A stretch of 64,000 nt of DNA from a virus. Position 1 is the first letter of the stretch. The number at the start of each line of letters is the position of its first letter. The notes under the pieces were generated by a model, which was not told the origin of the DNA, ran no database searches, and worked only from the letters and a program-made list of their open reading frames with translations. Both the position numbers and the translations under genes were made by a program. The stretch is from IMG/VR virus record IMGVR_UViG_3300035204_002103, positions 1-64,000 of that record; one strand, 5' to 3'. Of this stretch, positions 2,406 through 13,484 are shown piece by piece.

Positions 2406-2433
2406 AGTATAGGGGTTTTTTTATTAATGTCAA
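2406..2433 (-). promoter_or_regulatory. Sigma-70-type promoter, predicted leaderless start
   Basis: On the minus strand: TTGACA (2433-2428), 16-nt spacer, TATACT (2411-2406), then 6 nt to the ATG at 2399. The -35 box overlaps the last codons of the polymerase gene at 2430. Confidence 0.75.
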
Positions 2434-5009
2434 GCATCTTTTAGGTCAGATAGCTTGGTGTAAATTTTATTGGTTTGGATGGCTATTCTATCCGCAAAAA
2501 CTACTTCATCCTTTTTCTTCCCACTTACTATTATAATGTTGTCTGCTTCCGGTGGGTTATTTGCGTTTTCTGACATCATATTTTCTAGCCTATTCGAGAA
2601 GATCATTACTTTCATGTTAGCTGTTTCGTCTTTTACAAAGATTTTCATGTATTGATTATCGTTTCTAGACTTACCGAAATAAGGCTTATCTTCAATTGAG
2701 CCAACGAATGCTACCGTTTCATCAACATCGGCATCTTCCACTTCTCTTAAGGTGTATAACCCTGTCCTTTTGTCTTCGAAAATATCTTTTAATGTCTTTC
2801 CGCAAGTATAACCTAGTAAGTGGTTCTCATAATACCAGTTTGCAAATGACTCTGAATATTTATTTTTAAAATAAATTTGTTTATAAGGCTCTGATTTCTT
2901 TTTAATAGTTTTTAGCCTAGTGTCTTTTACCATGGGTTTACCTTTATCGTCTTTTTTATTGGATAGACTCTTAACTATTTCTACTAAATCAAAATCAAAT
3001 TTTTGAGCCATTGAAAGTGCTGCGGCCTTTTCTTTTTTAGTGAGAATGTTCCATAGTTGTGCCTCATAAACTATTTTACTGCGAGATATTTGAAACCCCT
3101 CAAAAGTTCCAGCCTGAATTAAGGCGGATAAAATACCAATAGTAAGCCCCGACTCTTTAGCTCCCTCAAAAACTTCGAATTTAGTGGAATAATTATTCTT
3201 AAAGTTGTTTAGCTTTTCAATTGATTTTTCTGATATTCCCTTGATAGATAGTAGTCCGAATCTAATGTTTTTATCTTCGATGCTAAAGTCCATATCTGAT
3301 TTTACGATATGAGGGCGTAAAAGCTCTACCCCAAAGTAAGACATCTCTCTTTGTATTTTAGAAATTTCTTGGATTGGATCTGGCTCGTGCCTTGTCATTT
3401 TAAGCAAGCTCAAGAAAAATTGTTGAGGGTACTTGAATTTAAGATATACAGTCGTTGCCGCTAAGGCAGCGTATGAAATGGAGTGAGACTTGTTAAAGGA
3501 GTAGTTCGCTGAGTCTTCTAATAAACTCCATAGAATGTCACCTATTTTAGTATCAAGATTATTATCTTTTACTTTGCTTTTAATTTTCTTTTTCCATTTC
3601 CTTACTTCAGAAACCTTCTTTTTGCCGACGATACGACGAAGTAGTTCGGCTTCATCTAGACTAAAGCCAACCTTGTTAGCCATCTTCATTAACTGTTCTT
3701 GATAGAGCGCGACTCCTCCTGTCGAGGACAAGATATCGTCAAAAAATGGATGAATAGATTTAGTTTCCCCCGTATTAACGTATTCAGCGTATTGATCTAC
3801 AAAAGCCAATGCTCCGGGGCGAGCCAAGGCTAGTACCCCGCTTAATTCTTCTAGGTTTTTAGGTTTAACTTTTTGACATACTCGAAAATTCGTATCCGCC
3901 TCGATCTGAAATAACCCGTGAGGTGTCCTAAGGTGTTGTAGATTATCGTATATCAAGTTATCCGTTAAATCTATGTCAGATATTTCAATGCCAACATTCT
4001 TGCATACATCATCGACAACAGAAACTGCTCGAAGACCAAGTATATCAAGCTTAACATTAAACATGGAAACCCAATTCATATCGTAAGACGATACAAAGCT
4101 TTTCTTATCTGAAGTTAGTTCTGTCGGGCAACTGTCTTCCATCATGTCATGAGAAAGAGATATCGCTGAGGGGTGTACTCCTTTGTTCTTGTTAAGGCTT
4201 TTTATTTTAAGGGCAATTTCGTAGCACTCTCTATTTTCGTCACACCACGATCTGAATTCAGGTTCTTCAGCGTAAGCTTCTTTCAGGTCTTTAACTTGAC
4301 CAAAAACTTTTGGAATAAGAGCGGAGACTTTATTCATTTCTTGCTCTGACTTAGAGGCTACTACTTTACCACATTCCTTCATACAAAGTTTACCGCTTAA
4401 GGTATTTAATGTGATTATTTTAGATGTTTTACCTTTGAATTTGTTTTCTAAAAACTCTAAAACTTTTTGTCTGTTGTAGTAACAGATATCTAAATCAACA
4501 TCCATCATTAGAGATCCATCTAGGTAAGTGATTCCATCTACAATAGTTTTCTTTGCTCTAATTTTTGAAATGAACCTCTCAAAATACAAGCCGTATTCTA
4601 ATGGGTCTATCTTGGTGACATCCATTAGGTAAAGGAGTAGACTTCCCGCTGCAGAGCCTCTACCAATACCTGTTGGAATTTTTTCTTTTTTGCAAAAGTT
4701 AATTACTTCCCAAACAAGTAAAAGGTAGTCAACAAAACCTAAATCTTTGACTGTTTTTAGCTCGTATTGTATTCTCTCTGCGTATTCGGACTTATGTTCT
4801 TTCCGTATATTGCTCCATATTTTTTCTCTACCAGAATCGCATAAGGCCTCTAAAAAATCTTCGTTAGTTATATCTTCGCTTACTCCCAATTTCCTTTTAT
4901 CTTCATCGCTAACCGTAAAGGAAGGGAGTCTTACCCCATGTATACCAAGGTCAAGCTTATCAAAGTTGTCTGTAAAATTAGCCATTGTTTTTATAAGTCT
5001 ATCATCCAT
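2430..5009 (-). CDS. dnaE: DNA polymerase III alpha, polymerase part (split dnaE)
   Basis: An 859-residue C-family polymerase without its PHP domain. It has the palm GIGRGSAAGS motif (about residues 114-123), the catalytic Asp motif MDVDLDICY (about 169-177), the third Asp in LDILGL, then thumb/fingers, helix-hairpin-helix region and a C-terminal OB-fold segment (about 760-830). Its first residues align with the point where the upstream PHP fragment at 7483-8232 stops, so little or no sequence is missing. It overlaps the DnaQ-like gene by 19 nt and is the last gene of the split-dnaE operon. Confidence 0.9.
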   Translation of the reverse strand: MDDRLIKTMANFTDNFDKLDLGIHGVRLPSFTVSDEDKRKLGVSEDITNEDFLEALCDSGREKIWSNIRKEHKSEYAERIQYELKTVKDLGFVDYLLLVWEVINFCKKEKIPTGIGRGSAAGSLLLYLMDVTKIDPLEYGLYFERFISKIRAKKTIVDGITYLDGSLMMDVDLDICYYNRQKVLEFLENKFKGKTSKIITLNTLSGKLCMKECGKVVASKSEQEMNKVSALIPKVFGQVKDLKEAYAEEPEFRSWCDENRECYEIALKIKSLNKNKGVHPSAISLSHDMMEDSCPTELTSDKKSFVSSYDMNWVSMFNVKLDILGLRAVSVVDDVCKNVGIEISDIDLTDNLIYDNLQHLRTPHGLFQIEADTNFRVCQKVKPKNLEELSGVLALARPGALAFVDQYAEYVNTGETKSIHPFFDDILSSTGGVALYQEQLMKMANKVGFSLDEAELLRRIVGKKKVSEVRKWKKKIKSKVKDNNLDTKIGDILWSLLEDSANYSFNKSHSISYAALAATTVYLKFKYPQQFFLSLLKMTRHEPDPIQEISKIQREMSYFGVELLRPHIVKSDMDFSIEDKNIRFGLLSIKGISEKSIEKLNNFKNNYSTKFEVFEGAKESGLTIGILSALIQAGTFEGFQISRSKIVYEAQLWNILTKKEKAAALSMAQKFDFDLVEIVKSLSNKKDDKGKPMVKDTRLKTIKKKSEPYKQIYFKNKYSESFANWYYENHLLGYTCGKTLKDIFEDKRTGLYTLREVEDADVDETVAFVGSIEDKPYFGKSRNDNQYMKIFVKDETANMKVMIFSNRLENMMSENANNPPEADNIIIVSGKKKDEVVFADRIAIQTNKIYTKLSDLKDA

Positions 5010-5629
5010 TTAATTTTATTCCAAACCTTTACGTTTAATTCTAGGTCAACTATAGCGTCATGTAAATTATCGTAATCGTGATCAATTTCGTATTCTTTTC
5101 CTAACGCAGTTAGGTTTGTCCTAACCCCTCTTCTTCTTTCGCTATACATTTTATATTGATATTCGAGAAAATTATCCCCCGGTTTATAATAGTTTCCGAA
5201 CTTCAATCCACGCGCTATACAGTTCGTGTCTATGACTTTTTCTACTAAATGCTTGTATGGCTTGCCCATATATTTGTAAAAGTCCTTTAATAAATATAAA
5301 TCAAACCCAAGAAAATTATGACCAACGATGTGGTCACAATTATCTAGCCAATCTTCTACCGTGGGGAAAACCTCTTCTGGGGGTAGCCCCTTTTTTTCTA
5401 AAACCTTAGGATTAAATTTAGTTATCCTTGCTGCGTCTGCGCTAATTTTTAAATGAGTATCCCACTTTATGTAAAAGTTTTTAGAAGACGTAGCTTTGTC
5501 CGCCACTACTTTAATCATGCCAATTTGCCAAGGAAGGTTATGGCATGAGTTAAGGCAAAGATTCAGTGTTTCGCAATCGAGAAAAACGTATTCTTTTTCT
5601 TTATCAAATCTTAAAAATTGTTCATCCAT
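4991..5629 (-). CDS. DnaQ-like 3'-5' proofreading exonuclease
   Basis: A 212-residue DEDDh exonuclease. Visible motifs: ExoI FLDCET (about residues 16-21), ExoII GHNFLGFDLYLL (about 101-112), and ExoIII with the DEDDh His in LHDAIVDLELN (about 190-200). It should supply proofreading for the alpha subunit encoded next to it; a 19-nt overlap suggests translational coupling. It sits inside the split dnaE locus together with two homing nucleases. Confidence 0.85.
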   Translation of the reverse strand: MDEQFLRFDKEKEYVFLDCETLNLCLNSCHNLPWQIGMIKVVADKATSSKNFYIKWDTHLKISADAARITKFNPKVLEKKGLPPEEVFPTVEDWLDNCDHIVGHNFLGFDLYLLKDFYKYMGKPYKHLVEKVIDTNCIARGLKFGNYYKPGDNFLEYQYKMYSERRRGVRTNLTALGKEYEIDHDYDNLHDAIVDLELNVKVWNKIKWMIDL

Positions 5630-5635
5630 AATTAG

Positions 5636-6607
5636 TTATAAGTTATAAAACATTGCGTTACTATCTTTCCAGTCCTCCACGTTAAGGCAGGTCCAACCCT
5701 CTTTACTTTTTTTAGATTTTCCAGTCCTTAAGGAAAATATTTGAGCATAGCTTATCGTGTGTTTTTTTGCAAACTCTTTAGCATTATTGTTTTTAACTTT
5801 GTGTATTTCGCCGTCTGGACCTTTAAATATCATTAAACGATTCTGTCTACTTATAATTCTTTTAGAGTATTCAAGGGCCTCTAGCGCTTTCTCATACTTT
5901 CTGTTCATGCGCGTTTCTTCTGTGGAATTTTCATATAAATATTCTAGAAGAAGCTTAATTGATAAACCTTTACTTACTGTTAAGACACAAAACGGCTTTT
6001 CTATGTCCTCTTGGGAATGCTCTCTTTCTTCCATATAATAAGAAAATTCTTTTCCGAAAATTTTCTTTAATTTTTTCCCTAAACCATTAATAAAATACCA
6101 AGAACCAGCAAAGGCAACTGTCCAGTTACATAAGATTTGCCCATTTTTATATGCCGTTCCTTTTTTGCAAGCAATGCTCCCGTCTCCATCTAAATACCCC
6201 CTAAGATAATGGTTAAGTAATTTATCTGATACTTGAGATCGTTTTGGAAATTCATGCCTTAAAGTTTTACGAGGCCCGCATTCTAATTTAGATAGGTTTA
6301 GAAGCGTATTCTCATCGGAAAATTGAAATCTACATCTACGGGCCGCAATCCCACTCCCAAGCAAATGATTCGTCGGAAGGTTCTGCGCAACTTTGTTTGG
6401 TATGCCTGTAAACTTGGCAAATTTTTTAAGGTGATCCGCGTCTGAGGCCTGTAGGCACAACTCTATTTTAGAAGAGGAATAAGTGGTCCCATTAGCGTGT
6501 AACCACTTAGACTTATAAACGCTTCCATCCGCTGTAAGGAAACCTAACCAGTAGGCTTCTTCTGGGTTTCTTATTTTTTCAAATAAATTATAATTATTTT
6601 TCTTCAT
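5636..6607 (-). CDS. LAGLIDADG homing endonuclease (free-standing)
   Basis: A 323-residue protein with two LAGLIDADG-type helices, WLGFLTADGS (about residues 19-28) and LRGYLDGDGS (about 135-144), the usual two-repeat monomeric arrangement. The C-terminal region (KGPDGEIHKVKN... then GWTCL) resembles the DNA-recognition modules (NUMOD-like) of intron-encoded nucleases. It lies between the two dnaE fragments, overlapping the HNH gene by 14 nt. No intron or intein boundary is visible, so it seems to be free-standing. Confidence 0.85.
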   Translation of the reverse strand: MKKNNYNLFEKIRNPEEAYWLGFLTADGSVYKSKWLHANGTTYSSSKIELCLQASDADHLKKFAKFTGIPNKVAQNLPTNHLLGSGIAARRCRFQFSDENTLLNLSKLECGPRKTLRHEFPKRSQVSDKLLNHYLRGYLDGDGSIACKKGTAYKNGQILCNWTVAFAGSWYFINGLGKKLKKIFGKEFSYYMEEREHSQEDIEKPFCVLTVSKGLSIKLLLEYLYENSTEETRMNRKYEKALEALEYSKRIISRQNRLMIFKGPDGEIHKVKNNNAKEFAKKHTISYAQIFSLRTGKSKKSKEGWTCLNVEDWKDSNAMFYNL

Positions 6608-7490
6608 TAAGCTCTAAACCTAGTTTTTTGAATAAGTGCGTTGTCGAGTTATCTGACTTCATCCTGTTCCAAAACCATGATGTTATCTCAACATTGCCTA
6701 AGATATACCCTTCGACTGGGTGAATTTTATCAAGAGAAGGAGCGTGAATATCTTCAAGACCGTTAACCCCTGTTCCATCTTTCGGGACACATTGCGTGTA
6801 GCCGTGGTATTGTAATTTTGGTTCTATGTTAAACAGGCGCTTGAGGTAGGGGCAATATTCCGGTAGTTCAATTTCGTTAATCACTGGCAGGAGTTCTTTT
6901 CTGCCAGCGTACGATATAATTTTTCTTTTTATAAACTCTTTTTTAGTGGGCAAAAGCTGAGCGCATTGTCTAACTATGACGGGTTCCCCTTCTTTGAGGG
7001 TGGCTTTCATTTTGTAAAAGGCATTCATCTTGGGCCGCTTTTTCCCGCTTCGAGTTGTATATTCTCCTTGCCGAAGCATTACGACTTTTTCATCCACCAA
7101 GGGGTAGAATTCCGATGGGTTTGTCTCTGCTGTTTCATACCTTGAGATAAGTTTATCTATTTTGAACTTCTGCCCGAATTCTCCAGAGCCATCGCCGGGA
7201 AGCCTGCTTCTGTTAGGGATTTTTATGCTAAGGAATTTTTCTACCTCATCAAAAAAACAATGAATGCTGTCTTTGTGGCGCTTAAGTAAGATTGCCCTAC
7301 TAAATGGAGCTTTTCCTAGTCGGTGAGCCTGCACGATTTCGTCCATTGTCGGTCCCCTTTGATTGGCTTTTATAAACTCTCTTACCCATATTGCGGACGA
7401 CTTAAAAGTCCCGTATTCTAGATCTCCGGTATAATGAGATCCATCTCTTGGCACTCTTTCAGCTCCGTTATTGTAAGCCTTTTTAGGCAT
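6594..7490 (-). CDS. HNH-type homing endonuclease at the dnaE break
   Basis: A protein of about 298 residues whose C-terminus carries the phage HNH-like signature PSLDKIHPVEGYILGNVEI followed by SWFWNRMKSD. The start at 7490 is preferred because GGAAGG lies 7 nt upstream and it gives an 8-nt overlap with the PHP fragment; an in-frame ATG at 7523 would overlap more. Its position exactly at the end of the PHP fragment makes it the best candidate for the element that split dnaE. Confidence 0.75.
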   Translation of the reverse strand: MPKKAYNNGAERVPRDGSHYTGDLEYGTFKSSAIWVREFIKANQRGPTMDEIVQAHRLGKAPFSRAILLKRHKDSIHCFFDEVEKFLSIKIPNRSRLPGDGSGEFGQKFKIDKLISRYETAETNPSEFYPLVDEKVVMLRQGEYTTRSGKKRPKMNAFYKMKATLKEGEPVIVRQCAQLLPTKKEFIKRKIISYAGRKELLPVINEIELPEYCPYLKRLFNIEPKLQYHGYTQCVPKDGTGVNGLEDIHAPSLDKIHPVEGYILGNVEITSWFWNRMKSDNSTTHLFKKLGLELNEEK

Positions 7491-8232
7491 TTTTTTCCTT
7501 CCAGCTTTCCATGCAGAACTCATTACTTGTCATATGTTCTAGCTCTGGCTTATCGAGAGTACTTCTTTTATTTATGCATCTAAAAGTAAGGTAAGCTTTA
7601 AAGTCTTTTTTATTTCTATAATAAATACTTTGAGCCTTTTGTGTGTTCTTCGATATATTTATTATTTTTTGTTTTATTAAATCGTCGAAAGGTAAATCAT
7701 TGTCTTCGATAAAATACGTGGGGTCTGTAAAGCCAAATTCTGGCACGCAAATGTTATTTTCCAATGTATTTTTAAAAACGTAAGAATCATAGAATGGAAT
7801 AACCATCATAAGTTCTGAGTCGTTCCACATTTCCTTTAGGCTTTTGTAATCAATTCTAGGCTCATAATAAAACCCCTCTCTTGCTGCGTGAGAAAATAAT
7901 TTTATTAGCCTTTTATATCCGTCATTATTTTTTGTGAAAATAATTATCTTGCTGTTGCTTTTAAGGGACTCTGGGGACTTGTCTTGCATGTCCAAGCAAA
8001 CTGTGAGCCTTAAGCCAAAAATTAATTTAATGTTTAATTCGTTTGAATTATTATAGGCCTCTAAAAATCCAGTCATACAGTCTTCTACTAGAACTAAATC
8101 TTTTAAGTTATTATTTTTTGCTATGGAGAAAACAGAGTCAGACTCATCGGGTTCATTGTCAACCAAATTGAGATTAAGTATTGATTTCCCGAGACTGTAA
8201 TGAGTCTTAAATAAAGGTAGCACTCCTTGCAT
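7483..8232 (-). CDS. dnaE: DNA polymerase III alpha, PHP part (split dnaE)
   Basis: A 249-residue protein matching the N-terminal PHP region of DnaE: LFKTHYSLGKSIL near the start (the HTHYSLLDG position), LKLIFGLR-like strands in the middle, AREGFYYEPRIDY, and a final segment MTSNEFCMESWKE that corresponds to the '...FYLKSPEEM' region just before the palm. It stops there, and the rest of the polymerase is encoded 2.5 kb downstream. Several PHP metal ligands appear degenerate, so the role is likely structural. Promoter at 8240-8267. Confidence 0.8.
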   Translation of the reverse strand: MQGVLPLFKTHYSLGKSILNLNLVDNEPDESDSVFSIAKNNNLKDLVLVEDCMTGFLEAYNNSNELNIKLIFGLRLTVCLDMQDKSPESLKSNSKIIIFTKNNDGYKRLIKLFSHAAREGFYYEPRIDYKSLKEMWNDSELMMVIPFYDSYVFKNTLENNICVPEFGFTDPTYFIEDNDLPFDDLIKQKIINISKNTQKAQSIYYRNKKDFKAYLTFRCINKRSTLDKPELEHMTSNEFCMESWKEKNA

Positions 8233-8239
8233 GAACTAT

Positions 8240-8267
8240 ATTATAGTATTTATTTTTGGCAAGTCAA
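8240..8267 (-). promoter_or_regulatory. Sigma-70-type promoter, predicted leaderless start
   Basis: On the minus strand: TTGACT (8267-8262), 16-nt spacer, TATAAT (8245-8240), 7 nt, ATG at 8232. It drives the split-dnaE operon. The -35 overlaps the end of the nuclease gene at 8264. Confidence 0.75.
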
Positions 8268-9253
8268 GCCCAATCGAACGGATCATCGCTAGAATCTGCT
8301 GAAGTCTGCGAATAAGTATGTGCAGGGCATCCTTCGTATTTCAATTTAGCTATTCTTTCCCCCTGCTTAGGTTCTCTTAGATCTTCTTTTTTAAATGCTG
8401 TTTGGATTATATCATCAAACTCATCCTTAAGAGCGTAATATTCTAAAGCGTCATAGTAAGGACATTTCCAAGTGGCACCCGCCTTGCACAACCACCTTGA
8501 TTCCGCTGAATCTGCTGCAAAGTTTGTCCTAGCTTTCTCCTTATCAAAATTGTTTACAATCTTATAAACGTGTGCCAGATAATGCTCAAACCCTTTAAGC
8601 TGTTCTTGGGTAACATTGACTTGTTGTAGTGGTTGTCTGGGAAATTTAAGAAATTGGAACTCAACCTCTACGTTTTTAATCTTGGGGAAAAGTTTTTTCT
8701 TGGAGGCTAAGGTATAAGCCATAGCTTGTACGTTGGCTGTTAATTCGTCTCCTTTGAATTTGTATTTACTTGTTTTGTAATCTATGATTTTAACTCTATC
8801 TTTGTATTTAAGAGTTTTATCAATGAACCCTCTTATTTTATAGGGTGGTCTTTTACTTTCTAGAAGAAACTCTAGTTCTGGGGCAGCGGGTTCGACCTCT
8901 TCTCCTGTGCCATAGAAGTCTTGATTAAGCCCTACTAAGATCATGCTCATACATAACTCGAAATTCTCTTTTGTTAGCGCCTCTCTCTTCTTCAGGTTTT
9001 TTTTGACGAGCCTTACTATCGGGCCGCTTGCTTCCGTGTTAGATTCTTTAATAATTAAATCGTAGTGCTTTCTGTGTCTTTTATTTAGTAGACACTCAAA
9101 TACTAGGTGGCATACAGTACCCCTTATAGCGCCGTCATTTGACTTCTGAGGGACTTTTAAGTGATAGTTGCACCAGTATGACCAGCTGCAGCTTTCTAGG
9201 GTTTTTATCCTTGAAGCGGATAAGATTTTTTCATTGTTTGTTTTCTTAGGCAT
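8264..9253 (-). CDS. PD-(D/E)XK nuclease, RecB/Cas4-like with probable Fe-S cluster
   Basis: A 329-residue nuclease. The N-terminal SASRIKTLESCSWSYWC resembles the first-Cys segment of Cas4/AddB nucleases. The catalytic core has RGFID, then IIDYKTSK (Asp and Lys of PD-(D/E)XK, about residues 165-172) and a QAMAYTLA helix. Near the C-terminus come WLCK, KCPYY and CPAH, which with the N-terminal Cys could ligate an Fe-S cluster. Likely a DNA end-processing exonuclease for recombination. A strong AGGAGG sits just before ATG at 9253. Confidence 0.8.
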   Translation of the reverse strand: MPKKTNNEKILSASRIKTLESCSWSYWCNYHLKVPQKSNDGAIRGTVCHLVFECLLNKRHRKHYDLIIKESNTEASGPIVRLVKKNLKKREALTKENFELCMSMILVGLNQDFYGTGEEVEPAAPELEFLLESKRPPYKIRGFIDKTLKYKDRVKIIDYKTSKYKFKGDELTANVQAMAYTLASKKKLFPKIKNVEVEFQFLKFPRQPLQQVNVTQEQLKGFEHYLAHVYKIVNNFDKEKARTNFAADSAESRWLCKAGATWKCPYYDALEYYALKDEFDDIIQTAFKKEDLREPKQGERIAKLKYEGCPAHTYSQTSADSSDDPFDWA

Positions 9254-9259
9254 AACCTC

Positions 9260-9376
9260 CTAATTAAGTTTAGCAAACTTTTCTCTAATTGCAACAAAAA
9301 AAATACATCCGACACACCCTAATAAATATAAGAAAGTAAGAATGATAATCCAAATAGCGGAACTAATCTCTTTCAT
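9260..9376 (-). CDS. 38-residue membrane microprotein
   Basis: A short frame between the saccharopine-dehydrogenase-like and nuclease genes. It overlaps the former by 14 nt and ends just before the Shine-Dalgarno of the latter. The product begins MKEISSAIWIIILTFLYLL, has one hydrophobic segment with two Cys, then a charged tail. Function unknown; the tight packing supports it as a real gene. Confidence 0.45.
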   Translation of the reverse strand: MKEISSAIWIIILTFLYLLGCVGCIFFVAIREKFAKLN

Positions 9377-10514
9377 AGTCGGCATCTTTAACGGCTTCCC
9401 TGAGAGAGTTCATGTTTTTCATAAACTCTTCATAGTCTACATCTTTATAGCTTAATGCGATGGGGATTTTGTCGTAGTAGTCTCTGTGTTGTGGTGCATT
9501 TTTTTCGAAAAAGTTTTCCGCCATCATTTTTGCAACAGAAGATATAGGAAAAGACGTGGCTTTTTGCATGGCAGAAAATGCTCCAGAAGATGGTATAAGT
9601 AACTCTTTTTCCCAAGAGGATTCTCTGGCTTTAACGGAGACTTTCATTATGACTAAATCGTCAACGCGCGTGTTGCCGGATTTAGCACACCCTTTATCAA
9701 ATATCTCCTTCATGCAGTCTGCGCTTAGATCAACGTTCCTTATTAAAAACTTTACTATGTCACAGTGACCTTTGTATCTAAGGGTTTTGTAAGAGCATTC
9801 TTTTACATTCCTTTTAGTCATTGAATCTATTGTATGCGAGGCTCCTCCACTAGTATAGAACGCTTCTAGCTCCCCAAGAGATTTTGTTTCGACTAACTCG
9901 AGCCCATCCATGCCCTTCGCTTTAGTTTTTACACCGTTAATTATTACGTCACAATCATCCTTGTATTCGTTTATTAAACCATCATAAGACCAGCTCATTT
10001 CGTAATTTAAAGGAGGGTTATTGGGTAGGGAAGGTAGTCCTCCGACCATCATTTTTACCTCATTTATCTCATTCGCTTTACCGTAGAGGCTTTTGCATCC
10101 ATGCTCTGCTAATATGTTTATCCATCCCGGTGCAAGACCTAAGTCTGTAAAGATGTGTGATTTGGATGTGGATAACCTCCCGCAAATATCATTAATCTCC
10201 TTTGAGACATCGACTCTTCCGCCAAGATCACAATAGTTATAACCTTTATTAGCACAAAATTTTGCTACGTCTTTCGTTTGGTGATAAGGTAAAGAAGATA
10301 TGACTACGCTTGGGCTCGATAACGTAATCATTTGCTCTATATCTTTTAAATTTTTAACTTCGTAAAAATCATAAAAACGTCTGGGCGGGTTGTTTCCTCT
10401 TGCTGCGTTGGGGTTACTGTCTATAGCTATTACGTCAAAGCCAAGGTGATTCATGCACCAAACTATGGCTTTACCCATATTTCCTAAACCACAAACTAGT
10501 ACTCTTTTTCTCAT
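9363..10514 (-). CDS. Saccharopine-dehydrogenase-like NAD(P) oxidoreductase
   Basis: A protein of about 383 residues with an N-terminal Rossmann motif RVLVCGLGNMGKAI, an acidic strand end (VIAIDSN), SSLPYHQT, then CDLGG and FTDLGLAPGW. This motif order matches the saccharopine dehydrogenase / lysine-6-dehydrogenase superfamily. The start at 10514 follows the preceding stop by 2 nt and has GGAG upstream. With the aldehyde dehydrogenase and VOC genes nearby it suggests lysine/aminoadipate-semialdehyde chemistry, but the substrate is inferred. Other superfamily members act on unrelated substrates. Confidence 0.75.
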   Translation of the reverse strand: MRKRVLVCGLGNMGKAIVWCMNHLGFDVIAIDSNPNAARGNNPPRRFYDFYEVKNLKDIEQMITLSSPSVVISSLPYHQTKDVAKFCANKGYNYCDLGGRVDVSKEINDICGRLSTSKSHIFTDLGLAPGWINILAEHGCKSLYGKANEINEVKMMVGGLPSLPNNPPLNYEMSWSYDGLINEYKDDCDVIINGVKTKAKGMDGLELVETKSLGELEAFYTSGGASHTIDSMTKRNVKECSYKTLRYKGHCDIVKFLIRNVDLSADCMKEIFDKGCAKSGNTRVDDLVIMKVSVKARESSWEKELLIPSSGAFSAMQKATSFPISSVAKMMAENFFEKNAPQHRDYYDKIPIALSYKDVDYEEFMKNMNSLREAVKDADYERD

Positions 10515-10516
10515 TT

Positions 10517-10720
10517 TTAGAAAAACTCCAGCCACCACAAAGTTAATATTCCTATTAGTATAGCTATCTCTATGGTATACAAACTATTAAAAAACAAAAA
10601 TGTAGATAACGTTATTATTGTAACGCCAACAAATAAGTCTTTCCAAAGTTTTTTAGTCATAGATTTTTCTTTTTTTTTAAAATGTTCTTCTCTCCATGCC
10701 AACCAGTCCTTATAGTTCAT
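10517..10720 (-). CDS. Small membrane protein
   Basis: A 67-residue protein: charged N-terminus (WREEHFKKKEKS) followed by two closely spaced hydrophobic segments (about residues 28-46 and 49-66). It lies 3 nt from the HAD gene and 2 nt from the dehydrogenase gene in the same operon. No family recognised. Confidence 0.55.
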   Translation of the reverse strand: MNYKDWLAWREEHFKKKEKSMTKKLWKDLFVGVTIITLSTFLFFNSLYTIEIAILIGILTLWWLEFF

Positions 10721-10723
10721 GCA

Positions 10724-11122
10724 TTAAAGCTCTTCAATTCTTTTTGCTTTATCATCTACGACCATGTCGTATGGGGGTTTTATAAACTCTCCTTTAGTTC
10801 CTGTTGACAAATCGTGAAACTTGCATCCCCATGACTCTAATTGTTGCCAAGTAAAATCATAGTAACATAGTCCTTTCTTTTTGGATCTCTCAGACCCTCC
10901 TCTCGCGGTCCAGTAGATTATTCGCCAACCTTCATCGTACAGGTCGTTTATTTTTTTGATATTTGCCATATGACCTATGGCTTTATCATATCTTCTTTCA
11001 TTTTCGTAAAAACATATGGTTTCATCTATGTCTACTAATGCGACTTTTTGTTCACCTTCTGGTGCAAATCTTAGCGATTGATGAAACTCTCTGTTTTGCG
11101 TGTGTTCTGGGTGTTCGCTCAT
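10724..11122 (-). CDS. HAD-superfamily phosphatase, PNKP/5'-nucleotidase-like
   Basis: A 132-residue HAD protein: motif I ALVDIDETI (about residues 29-37), motif II IIYWTARGG with the conserved Thr (about 68-76), and motif III/IV KPPYDMVVDDKAKR near the C-terminus. The small cap-less form resembles the polynucleotide 3'-phosphatase type of HAD domains and similar phage proteins. AAGGA lies upstream of ATG at 11122. Substrate not determined. Confidence 0.75.
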   Translation of the reverse strand: MSEHPEHTQNREFHQSLRFAPEGEQKVALVDIDETICFYENERRYDKAIGHMANIKKINDLYDEGWRIIYWTARGGSERSKKKGLCYYDFTWQQLESWGCKFHDLSTGTKGEFIKPPYDMVVDDKAKRIEEL

Positions 11123-11231
11123 TATTCGGTTCCTTTTTAACTTCTTCCATTCTTTTTAGGCAGTTGTTTAGCATTCCCAAACATAAAAGTACCACTGCGG
11201 ACATTAATATTAATAAAATTAATACTGTCAT
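11052..11231 (-). CDS. Small membrane protein overlapping the HAD gene
   Basis: A 59-residue frame starting MTVLILLILM with a single N-terminal membrane segment and a basic tail. Its ATG overlaps the stop of the upstream 49-residue gene as ATGA, which supports the start. Its 3' part overlaps the HAD gene by 71 nt, longer than usual. Confidence 0.45.
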   Translation of the reverse strand: MTVLILLILMSAVVLLCLGMLNNCLKRMEEVKKEPNNERTPRTHAKQRVSSIAKICTRR

Positions 11232-11377
11232 TTTTTGGGTTTGCAGTTTTGGCGACACCTTTTCCTGTGTCCGCCTTGCCCTTTGTATTTTTTCATACCT
11301 TTGCTTCGGTTACTGCATCCTTGCCGGGTTTTCTTTCTAACTCTTTTCTTATCGTAGTCTGCGTGTTTTCTTACCAT
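11228..11377 (-). CDS. 49-residue highly basic Cys-containing protein
   Basis: A short gene between aldehyde dehydrogenase and the small membrane gene. Its ATG is 1 nt after the upstream stop, it has AAGGA upstream, and its stop overlaps the next ATG (ATGA). The product is extremely rich in Lys/Arg with two Cys (GCSNR and QNCKP), suggesting nucleic-acid binding. No family recognised. Confidence 0.5.
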   Translation of the reverse strand: MVRKHADYDKKRVRKKTRQGCSNRSKGMKKYKGQGGHRKRCRQNCKPKK

Positions 11378-11378
11378 G

Positions 11379-12914
11379 TTATTTCATTCCTTGTGGGAAA
11401 GTCAGTCTGTCTGCATGATTTACAGTCCAGCTAACTTCATGTGTTACTGCTCTATATGTTCTTGCTGCGCTTGGGAATCCGTTTCCAGATTTTTTTACTC
11501 CACCAAAAGACAGGTGTGACTCTGCCGCAATGGACCCTCCGTTCCAGTAGATCATTCCTGCGTCACACTCATCCCTCATTATTCTTGCTTTCCTGAAGTC
11601 ATTAGTTAAAACCCCTACAGCAAGACCATAATCCGTATCGTTATAAATGCGTATAGCTTCTTCTATGGTATCAAATGGTATAATTGATACGTGAGGACCA
11701 AACACTTCATTCTTTAAGTAAGGAACATCTCTCCATTCGGTTTTATAAACCATGGGAGACATAAAATAACCGGGTCTTAGTTCCTCAATTCGTTTACCGT
11801 CTAGTAAGATTTGAGCTTTAGGGTCGACCCTTACCATGTCGTTATAAGATTCTATTTTATCAATACCTTGTTGATTGATTATGGGGCCATAATAGTTTTC
11901 TTTATTGGGGGTGTATTCTTCCCAGCATATCGATGCGGGTGTGCCACATGAACCCATATTAATATCAAACGGATTGCCCGTCTTTAACTTTTCCGCTTCT
12001 TCAGCAAATCTCCTTGCAAATTCTTCGTAAATCGTTCTTTGAACAATCATTCTGCCTGAGGAAACGCATCGTTGACCCGAAAGTTTGAACGCGCTAGCAA
12101 CAGCAGATTCTGTGGCTAATCTAGATTCAACATCATCAAAAATAATACAAGCAGACTTACTCCCCATTTCGCAAGAAGTTGTTTTATGCCAGCTTTCTGC
12201 GGCCACCATTCTTACGTGTTGACCCACTTCAGCACTTCCTGTAAAACAAATATGATCAACGTCTTCGTGGATTAAGCTATCACCCGTTTCTCCTTCTCCA
12301 TGAATCAAGTTAATGACTCCACGGGGTATTCCTGCCTCTTCGTAAATCTGAACCGCTAACTCTGTTGAAATTGGTGCATCTTCGGACGGCTTAAATATAA
12401 CAGTGTTGCCCTCTACTAAGGCTGGAGCAGCACACCAATAAGCTCCGATAGCTAAAGGAAAATTAAAGGGAGAAACTATCGCAATAACTCCTTTGGGTTT
12501 ACGAAGCATATAGGCGTCCTTATCTTGAATTTCAGATGAAACAGCCTCTCCGTGTGGTCCACGACCAGAACCAAAGGCAAACTGAGCCATGTGAAGCGCT
12601 TCGTTTACCTCTGCAATGCTTTCGTTATAATTCTTACCAGTTTCCCAAGAGATAACTTTAGCTAATTCTTCTCGCCTTCTTTCTATAATTTGAGCAACTC
12701 GATACATATAGTCTGACCGCACAAACCTACTTAGCTTTCTCCAGTCATTAAAGGCGCTCCTTGCAGCAAGGTAAGCGTCATGCACTTCTGGCTTACCGGT
12801 ATTTGGGAAAACTCCCATGTATTTTCCTGTAGATGGATTGACCTTAGAATAAACGTTATCCGTAGGTTTTATCCATTCACCGTTTATATAATTTTTTCCT
12901 TCGTAATCTCTCAT
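11379..12914 (-). CDS. Aldehyde dehydrogenase (semialdehyde type)
   Basis: A 511-residue, full-length NAD(P)-dependent ALDH. Visible: ISPFNFPLA-type cofactor entry (IVSPFNFPLAIG), FTGSAEVGQ, the general-base region CEMGSKSA, catalytic Cys in SGQRCVSS, and EVFGPHVSIIPF. The C-terminal GAEVHLPFGG-like segment (AAESHLSFGGVKKSGNG) resembles semialdehyde dehydrogenases related to piperideine-6-carboxylate/aminoadipate-semialdehyde enzymes. Its neighbours suggest it oxidises the product of a saccharopine- or lysine-dehydrogenase-like step. Full ALDHs are unusual in phages. Confidence 0.9.
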   Translation of the reverse strand: MRDYEGKNYINGEWIKPTDNVYSKVNPSTGKYMGVFPNTGKPEVHDAYLAARSAFNDWRKLSRFVRSDYMYRVAQIIERRREELAKVISWETGKNYNESIAEVNEALHMAQFAFGSGRGPHGEAVSSEIQDKDAYMLRKPKGVIAIVSPFNFPLAIGAYWCAAPALVEGNTVIFKPSEDAPISTELAVQIYEEAGIPRGVINLIHGEGETGDSLIHEDVDHICFTGSAEVGQHVRMVAAESWHKTTSCEMGSKSACIIFDDVESRLATESAVASAFKLSGQRCVSSGRMIVQRTIYEEFARRFAEEAEKLKTGNPFDINMGSCGTPASICWEEYTPNKENYYGPIINQQGIDKIESYNDMVRVDPKAQILLDGKRIEELRPGYFMSPMVYKTEWRDVPYLKNEVFGPHVSIIPFDTIEEAIRIYNDTDYGLAVGVLTNDFRKARIMRDECDAGMIYWNGGSIAAESHLSFGGVKKSGNGFPSAARTYRAVTHEVSWTVNHADRLTFPQGMK

Positions 12915-12917
12915 TAT

Positions 12918-13484
12918 TTAACCTTTCGTGCTTTCCATAAGCCCTTTGACATTGACTTCACAGAATCCTTTATTATCTTTACCTCTTTTAATAAGTTCAT
13001 AAATAACTCCTGTTAATTCTGAAGGCTTTGTAAAAACTTGGACTAGATCAGTTTCTTTACATATCAAGGGCTTCTCAGAGTAAAATTCCGCATACCCCTT
13101 TTCTTTCCATTCCTGCATTGTTCCTGCTACATCTTCCACTTGATAAGCAATGTGGTGAACGCCCCCAATACCTCCACGCTCATCCACCCAATCACCCACA
13201 ATACTCCCTTTGGGGCCGTCGCTAACAAAAATTTCGGGGGGCGCATGATATTCGACAGGAGTTTCTGTTTCGATTTCGTTCAAAGAAATGTAGGTTTCCA
13301 TTATCCATAAGTTAGTCTCTTTAGTTCTGTTCTCTGGTGGAGCGAGAGCGATACAATCTGTAGTTGTTCCATCGTCAAATTTTAAATCGAATTCTGTACC
13401 GATGGTGTACCCTAAGCAATCTTGAAAAAATTGAGCAGTTTTACGTCTGTCTTTTGCCCTATAAGCTATGTGATCTAGTCTCAT
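12918..13484 (-). CDS. VOC-superfamily protein (glyoxalase/HPPD-like), copy 1
   Basis: A 188-residue vicinal-oxygen-chelate protein with two beta-alpha-beta modules: LDHIAYRAKD near the N-terminus (first metal His) and GGVHHIAYQVED (about residues 107-118), then LTGVIYELI (terminal Glu ligand). The DLVQVFTKPSELTGVIYEL stretch is nearly the same in the second copy at 53124. VOC enzymes include dioxygenases, glyoxalases and isomerases; the reaction is not predicted. It is 3 nt from the aldehyde dehydrogenase gene, so probably in one pathway. Confidence 0.85.
   Translation of the reverse strand: MRLDHIAYRAKDRRKTAQFFQDCLGYTIGTEFDLKFDDGTTTDCIALAPPENRTKETNLWIMETYISLNEIETETPVEYHAPPEIFVSDGPKGSIVGDWVDERGGIGGVHHIAYQVEDVAGTMQEWKEKGYAEFYSEKPLICKETDLVQVFTKPSELTGVIYELIKRGKDNKGFCEVNVKGLMESTKG

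Follow-up and report, generated by a model that had tools for sequence, protein, structure and literature searches.

The viral locus analysed here encodes a DnaE-type DNA polymerase III α subunit as two genes with a gene for a DnaQ-type exonuclease between them, and this arrangement is an old one, shared throughout a large clade of uncultured phages that are mostly marine. The locus lies in a 64,000-nucleotide stretch of DNA (the window), which corresponds to positions 1 to 64,000 of the 71.8-kb record IMGVR_UViG_3300035204_002103. The model that best accounts for our results as a whole, and that is probably correct, is that an old split into PHP, dnaQ and polymerase genes would have given rise to a non-covalent three-chain replicase core, into whose operon two nuclease genes were inserted late.

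Five ORFs make up the locus, all on the minus strand, and their order of transcription in the ORF list is PHP, HNH-like nuclease, LAGLIDADG nuclease, DnaQ and the polymerase part of DnaE, hereafter POL (Table 1). As the first-pass annotation had proposed, the DnaE-type Pol III α is distributed over two genes, a reading with which the family searches agree; POL was matched by the Pfam families DNA_pol3_alpha (E 1.8e-55), finger and HHH_6. The same strand also encodes a primase, a DnaB helicase, a UvsX-like recombinase, NrdA and NrdB. The replication genes are adjoined by minus-strand genes (9363-13484) that resemble, by sequence appearance, those for a saccharopine dehydrogenase, an aldehyde dehydrogenase and a glyoxalase, and that are possible metabolic cargo. 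Elsewhere on the plus strand, the window contains a manA RNA motif (RF01745; 46382-46571; 60.8 bits, above the gathering score) and, at 2-352, an ORF with collagen-like Gly-X-Y repeats that runs off the start of the window.

Table 1. Features of the divided dnaE locus in the window.
Feature	Coordinates	Strand	Supporting evidence
PHP domain of DnaE, separate 249-aa gene	7483..8232	-	Pfam PHP 1.2e-12
HNH/endoVII-like free-standing nuclease, 298 aa, ATG 7490	6594..7490	-	phrog_3322 endonuclease 4e-9
LAGLIDADG endonuclease (putative), 323 aa	5636..6607	-	LAGLIDADG_3 6.3e-5; phrog_4645 endonuclease 6e-38
Nuclease cassette in PHP-stop/DnaQ-start seam	5630..7490	-	Empty site in L001 and L008
DnaQ-type 3'-5' exonuclease, 212 aa	4991..5629	-	Pfam RNase_T 2.9e-15
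POL, polymerase part of DnaE (palm, fingers, HhH, OB), 859 aa	2430..5009	-	Pfam

The gap between the two halves had been described as holding two homing-type nucleases and a DnaQ, and a family match supports each of these, that of the HNH gene weakly: its phrog_3322 match is confined to residues 260-299 (40 residues), it gave no match to Pfam HNH, and tblastn against phage records returned nothing. The LAGLIDADG translation contains two motifs, YWLGFLTADGS and YLRGYLDGDGS, and relatives of the protein in other phages are annotated as homing endonucleases. These features place it among the LAGLIDADG homing endonucleases, with putative cleavage activity; homing by the two nucleases is likewise presumed. 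Single-sequence queries of viral contigs, whose reach is limited to close relatives, recovered no relative of either nuclease, and in the PDB the LAGLIDADG protein found only a weak match (I-MsoI, E 0.24) and DnaQ found no sequence match. The catalytic DEDDh residues that mark DnaQ/ε proofreading exonucleases (D18, E20, D110, H190 and D195) are invariant in DnaQ. The genes in the gap were said to overlap throughout by a few bases. This holds for PHP/HNH (8 nt), HNH/LAGLIDADG (14 nt) and DnaQ/POL (19 nt); LAGLIDADG and DnaQ are instead separated by a 6-nt gap. All coordinates of the first-pass annotation could be retained save the HNH start, which it had placed at 7523, within the PHP coding sequence, and which is most likely the ATG at 7490, overlapping the PHP stop.

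Together, the two halves account for a standard DnaE. On the profile phrog_405, PHP residue 241 aligns to position 288, and POL takes over with its residue 9 at position 305; between these points, 16 residues stand against 16 profile positions. In structure comparisons, the model of PHP (pLDDT 86) matches residues 5-258 of Taq DnaE with its residues 1-249 (Z 20.4) and also matches E. coli 3-248, the whole length being covered, and the model of POL matches Taq DnaE 265-1123 with its residues 2-847. Confidence in the POL model is moderate (pLDDT 69) and is lowest at residues 1-30, beside the break. The profile tiling and the structure matches therefore indicate that the two ORFs cover DnaE without loss, in agreement with the earlier remark that nothing obvious is missing at the break. 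The palm aspartates D172, D174 and D322 are invariant among relatives, and the expected parts of a DnaE-type C-family polymerase (PHP, palm with three aspartates, fingers, HhH and C-terminal OB) are all present, in two chains. The metal site of PHP is gone: in the aligned members 8 of 9 ligands are replaced, with the first His retained in most.

To define the spread of the split, a scan with POL was performed, yielding 80 relatives at 61-87% identity, and further scans used PHP as the query, a group at about 50% identity that was initially encountered in contigs of GTDB MAGs, and another group more distant again. Every POL-scan relative with enough upstream sequence has a separate PHP ORF of about 250 aa, a DnaQ of about 212 aa and POL, and the further scans returned the same arrangement. 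Both halves are visible in 290 loci, which represent 224 distinct PHP sequences because some contigs were fetched twice; in every one of the 290 the genes are separate and run PHP-DnaQ-POL, with no fusion seen, so that the single polypeptide carrying PHP and polymerase that is expected of a DnaE is absent from each. In a tree that also contained fused DnaE proteins from bacteria and cultured phages, the split polymerases group together, apart from the fused ones, in a single clade (61/61, support 0.978). The break therefore predates a divergence in which the polymerases of the clade have come to differ at up to 54% of positions. No fused relative at about 30-43% identity was recovered in these non-exhaustive searches, which may miss fused relatives below about 43% identity because they began from split sequences.

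The closest relative (L001; polymerase 87% identical) has PHP, DnaQ and POL joined by short overlaps, with no nuclease gene, and it provides an exact empty site for the 1.86-kb nuclease cassette of the window. Its seam reads AAGAATGGATGAACAA, with the PHP stop overlapping the DnaQ start. In the window, the upstream edge reads AAAAAAATGCCTAA, containing the HNH start and the PHP stop, and the sequence 1.86 kb further on reads ATTATGGATGAACAA, containing the DnaQ start. From these letters it follows that the cassette sits exactly in the seam between PHP stop and DnaQ start, altering only the last PHP residue. Other genes occupy such positions elsewhere. In an 86% relative (L009), a glycosyltransferase-like gene stands in the PHP/DnaQ seam with a start/stop overlap of the same kind, and nucleases occur as cargo in L073 and L233 (LAGLIDADG) and in L127 (HNH); cargo named from the look of the sequences includes glycosyltransferases, a cupin and proteins resembling IMP dehydrogenase and SET proteins. 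Of 294 PHP-DnaQ seams, 168 fall below 60 nt and count as tight, and the other 126 are filled; for DnaQ-POL, 174 of 305 seams are tight and 131 are not. The seams are general docks for cargo, and homing-type nucleases take them only occasionally. In 93 loci, a small conserved ORF of about 75 aa lies between DnaQ and POL (for example, L134 7865-8089); it is not present in the window and gave no convincing family match. Large opposite-strand genes that resemble tail or adhesin genes directly follow DnaQ in L137 (7860-12738, where the fetched stretch ends before POL) and L036 (7587-9650).

These comparisons bear on how the gene came to be divided. The first-pass annotation had attributed the pieces to nuclease insertion, which was also to have captured dnaQ, and had named in advance related phages that lack the nucleases yet share the break as the finding that would refute it. 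A split of this type, known from nrdA and mobE of phage Aeh1 (PMC2988022), should leave a nuclease ORF between the halves, and two such genes are indeed there; it should also leave an intact gene in nuclease-free relatives, and this was not found. All 290 relatives are split, nearly all of them without such nucleases and with DnaQ already in the break, and L001 preserves the site as it was before the cassette. That the present homing endonucleases divided an intact dnaE is thus very improbable, and the capture of dnaQ by their insertion fails on the same nuclease-free loci; both nucleases entered an old seam later instead. An older and since-lost mobile element that divided dnaE in the ancestor of the clade and brought dnaQ with it is a more serious alternative, which we regard as possible but doubtful. 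The repeated attraction of nucleases and other cargo to the seams would fit such an origin; however, the clade as a whole shares no trace of an element, tight seams make up about half of the total, and a rearrangement would serve equally well.

A further possibility is that the halves are joined into one chain by RNA splicing or by protein trans-splicing, as might be suspected from other dnaE genes that carry group I introns (KKP_3916) or split inteins (L169 and L319). No Rfam intron was detected in 4800-8300 at E values up to 10, whereas in Alicyclobacillus phage KKP_3916 the same library recovered two group I introns within dnaE, one of 70.6 bits (above the gathering score) adjoining a LAGLIDADG ORF and a second of 41.7 bits (below it). 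Similarly, a family search found no intein domain or intein ends on PHP or POL, whereas in L169 POL the same search recognised the two halves of a split intein. The length of PHP is constant across relatives at 245-259 aa, and in over half of them PHP and DnaQ (<60 nt apart in about half) leave no room for an intron or intein. We therefore consider joining of the halves by splicing hardly credible, and the earlier expectation that no splicing element links them is borne out, with positive controls for both kinds.

Several relatives show further interruptions of dnaE. In KKP_3916 (L334; OQ846916.1 57500-66500) the gene is broken into four pieces, each of them annotated as 'hypothetical protein'. 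In L169 (3726-6701), L319 (5870-9074) and L320, what appears to be a natural split intein divides POL once more, with the junction FNK|C...SN|SHSIS; its site falls within the conserved motif that also holds the cyanobacterial DnaE intein, about four residues away. In L169 both intein_Nterm and intein_Cterm pass the cut-off. A LAGLIDADG-like ORF interrupts the dnaE palm of Lysinibacillus phage LC76P1 (L088 2831-7377), in which no Rfam intron was found, and in Rossellomorea phage phiT1 (L082 3161-6443) dnaE is split further down by a 49-aa ORF.

We next consider what the separate PHP chain does. Measured against the two nearest relatives, pN is 0.08-0.15 for both halves, and no dN/dS ratio is given because synonymous sites are saturated (pS near 0.8-0.9); PHP and POL are both under purifying selection. 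Evolutionary distances correlate between PHP and POL (r 0.86) and between DnaQ and POL (0.93), with 0 of 999 permutations reaching these values, although the PHP-POL covariation may reflect mere joint descent of the genes. The loss of the metal site could be read as a sign that PHP is a dispensable remnant and that POL works alone; we judge this improbable, since PHP is present with stable length in every one of the 290 loci that show the two halves, is under purifying selection and co-diverges with POL. The PHP chain has lost its nuclease site and most likely serves as a scaffold, and from the coverage and conservation of the two halves we infer that they reassemble non-covalently as proteins. 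In E. coli, ε binds the PHP domain, and by analogy DnaQ may be held by PHP here. Bacterial PHP domains that are inactive occur alongside a DnaQ proofreader (PMC12926913), and PHP is nearly universal among C-family polymerases (PMC3919608). We think it somewhat more likely than not that PHP is an obligate, catalytically dead subunit encoded apart from the polymerase, with dnaQ lying between their genes, in which case a large phage lineage would possess a naturally three-chain Pol III core.

Parts of this arrangement have counterparts in known systems. DnaE is likewise encoded by two genes in cyanobacteria with a split-intein DnaE and in the 'fractured genes' of marine phages, where the halves are joined by protein trans-splicing; unlike in cyanobacterial DnaE, there is no intein at the PHP/POL break of the window. 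PHP, polymerase and a DnaQ-type exonuclease also belong to one replicase in E. coli Pol III α-ε and in PolC, and there too an inactive PHP is backed by DnaQ; however, PHP is part of the α chain in E. coli, and in PolC the exonuclease is inserted into PHP within the same chain, whereas the window has three separate genes. A published two-gene case is that of the Microbacterium cluster EF phages (Krampusvirus: Krampus, AnnaSerena and Haunter), which have two Pol III α-related genes (PMC7302621). PHP (345 aa, gp56 in Haunter) and polymerase (766 aa, gp57) are neighbours there, separated by neither an intein nor a nuclease. Their split is of independent origin: the cluster EF polymerase groups with the fused Gumball protein (support 1.0), the break is shifted onward by roughly 40 residues, and the gap contains no dnaQ. 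In Aeromonas T4-like phages 25 and 44RR, gene 43, which encodes a family B polymerase, is split into 43A and 43B, and the endonuclease may postdate the split (PMC2988022). This is again a phage replicative polymerase in two genes whose endonuclease possibly entered an already split gene, although the polymerase family is unrelated and the gap contains no dnaQ; the order of events, left open for gene 43, is settled in the clade of the window by its relatives. The Aeh1 nrdA-a/mobE/nrdA-b locus shares with the window an HNH-type free-standing nuclease between the halves and start/stop overlaps (PMC2988022), but there the nuclease made the split. Literature searches, which left many subscription journals uncovered, found neither a divided phage dnaE with dnaQ between its parts nor a clade-wide PHP-dnaQ-pol layout. 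As far as the searched literature shows, the three-gene layout has not been described for cells; a two-gene dnaE has already been published.

We propose that the dnaE of an ancestral phage broke within the linker that joins PHP to the palm, that dnaQ ended up at the break, and that PHP-dnaQ-pol then became established as an operon of three genes throughout a large clade of phages. The overlapping start and stop codons probably couple translation of PHP, DnaQ and POL. The dead PHP would dock on the polymerase as it does in cis and may also hold the exonuclease, so that POL, PHP scaffold and DnaQ proofreader would form one non-covalent proofreading replicase core. In the lineage of the window, the HNH and LAGLIDADG cassette later entered the seam between PHP and DnaQ, where it makes use of the existing start/stop overlap and leaves the three proteins intact. 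The empty-site comparison shows homing-type nucleases colonising a polymerase gene that was already split. In these phages, PHP is naturally separated from the rest of Pol III α, and more than two hundred distinct sequences have kept it so; free-standing parts therefore make it possible to test what an inactive PHP domain contributes structurally.
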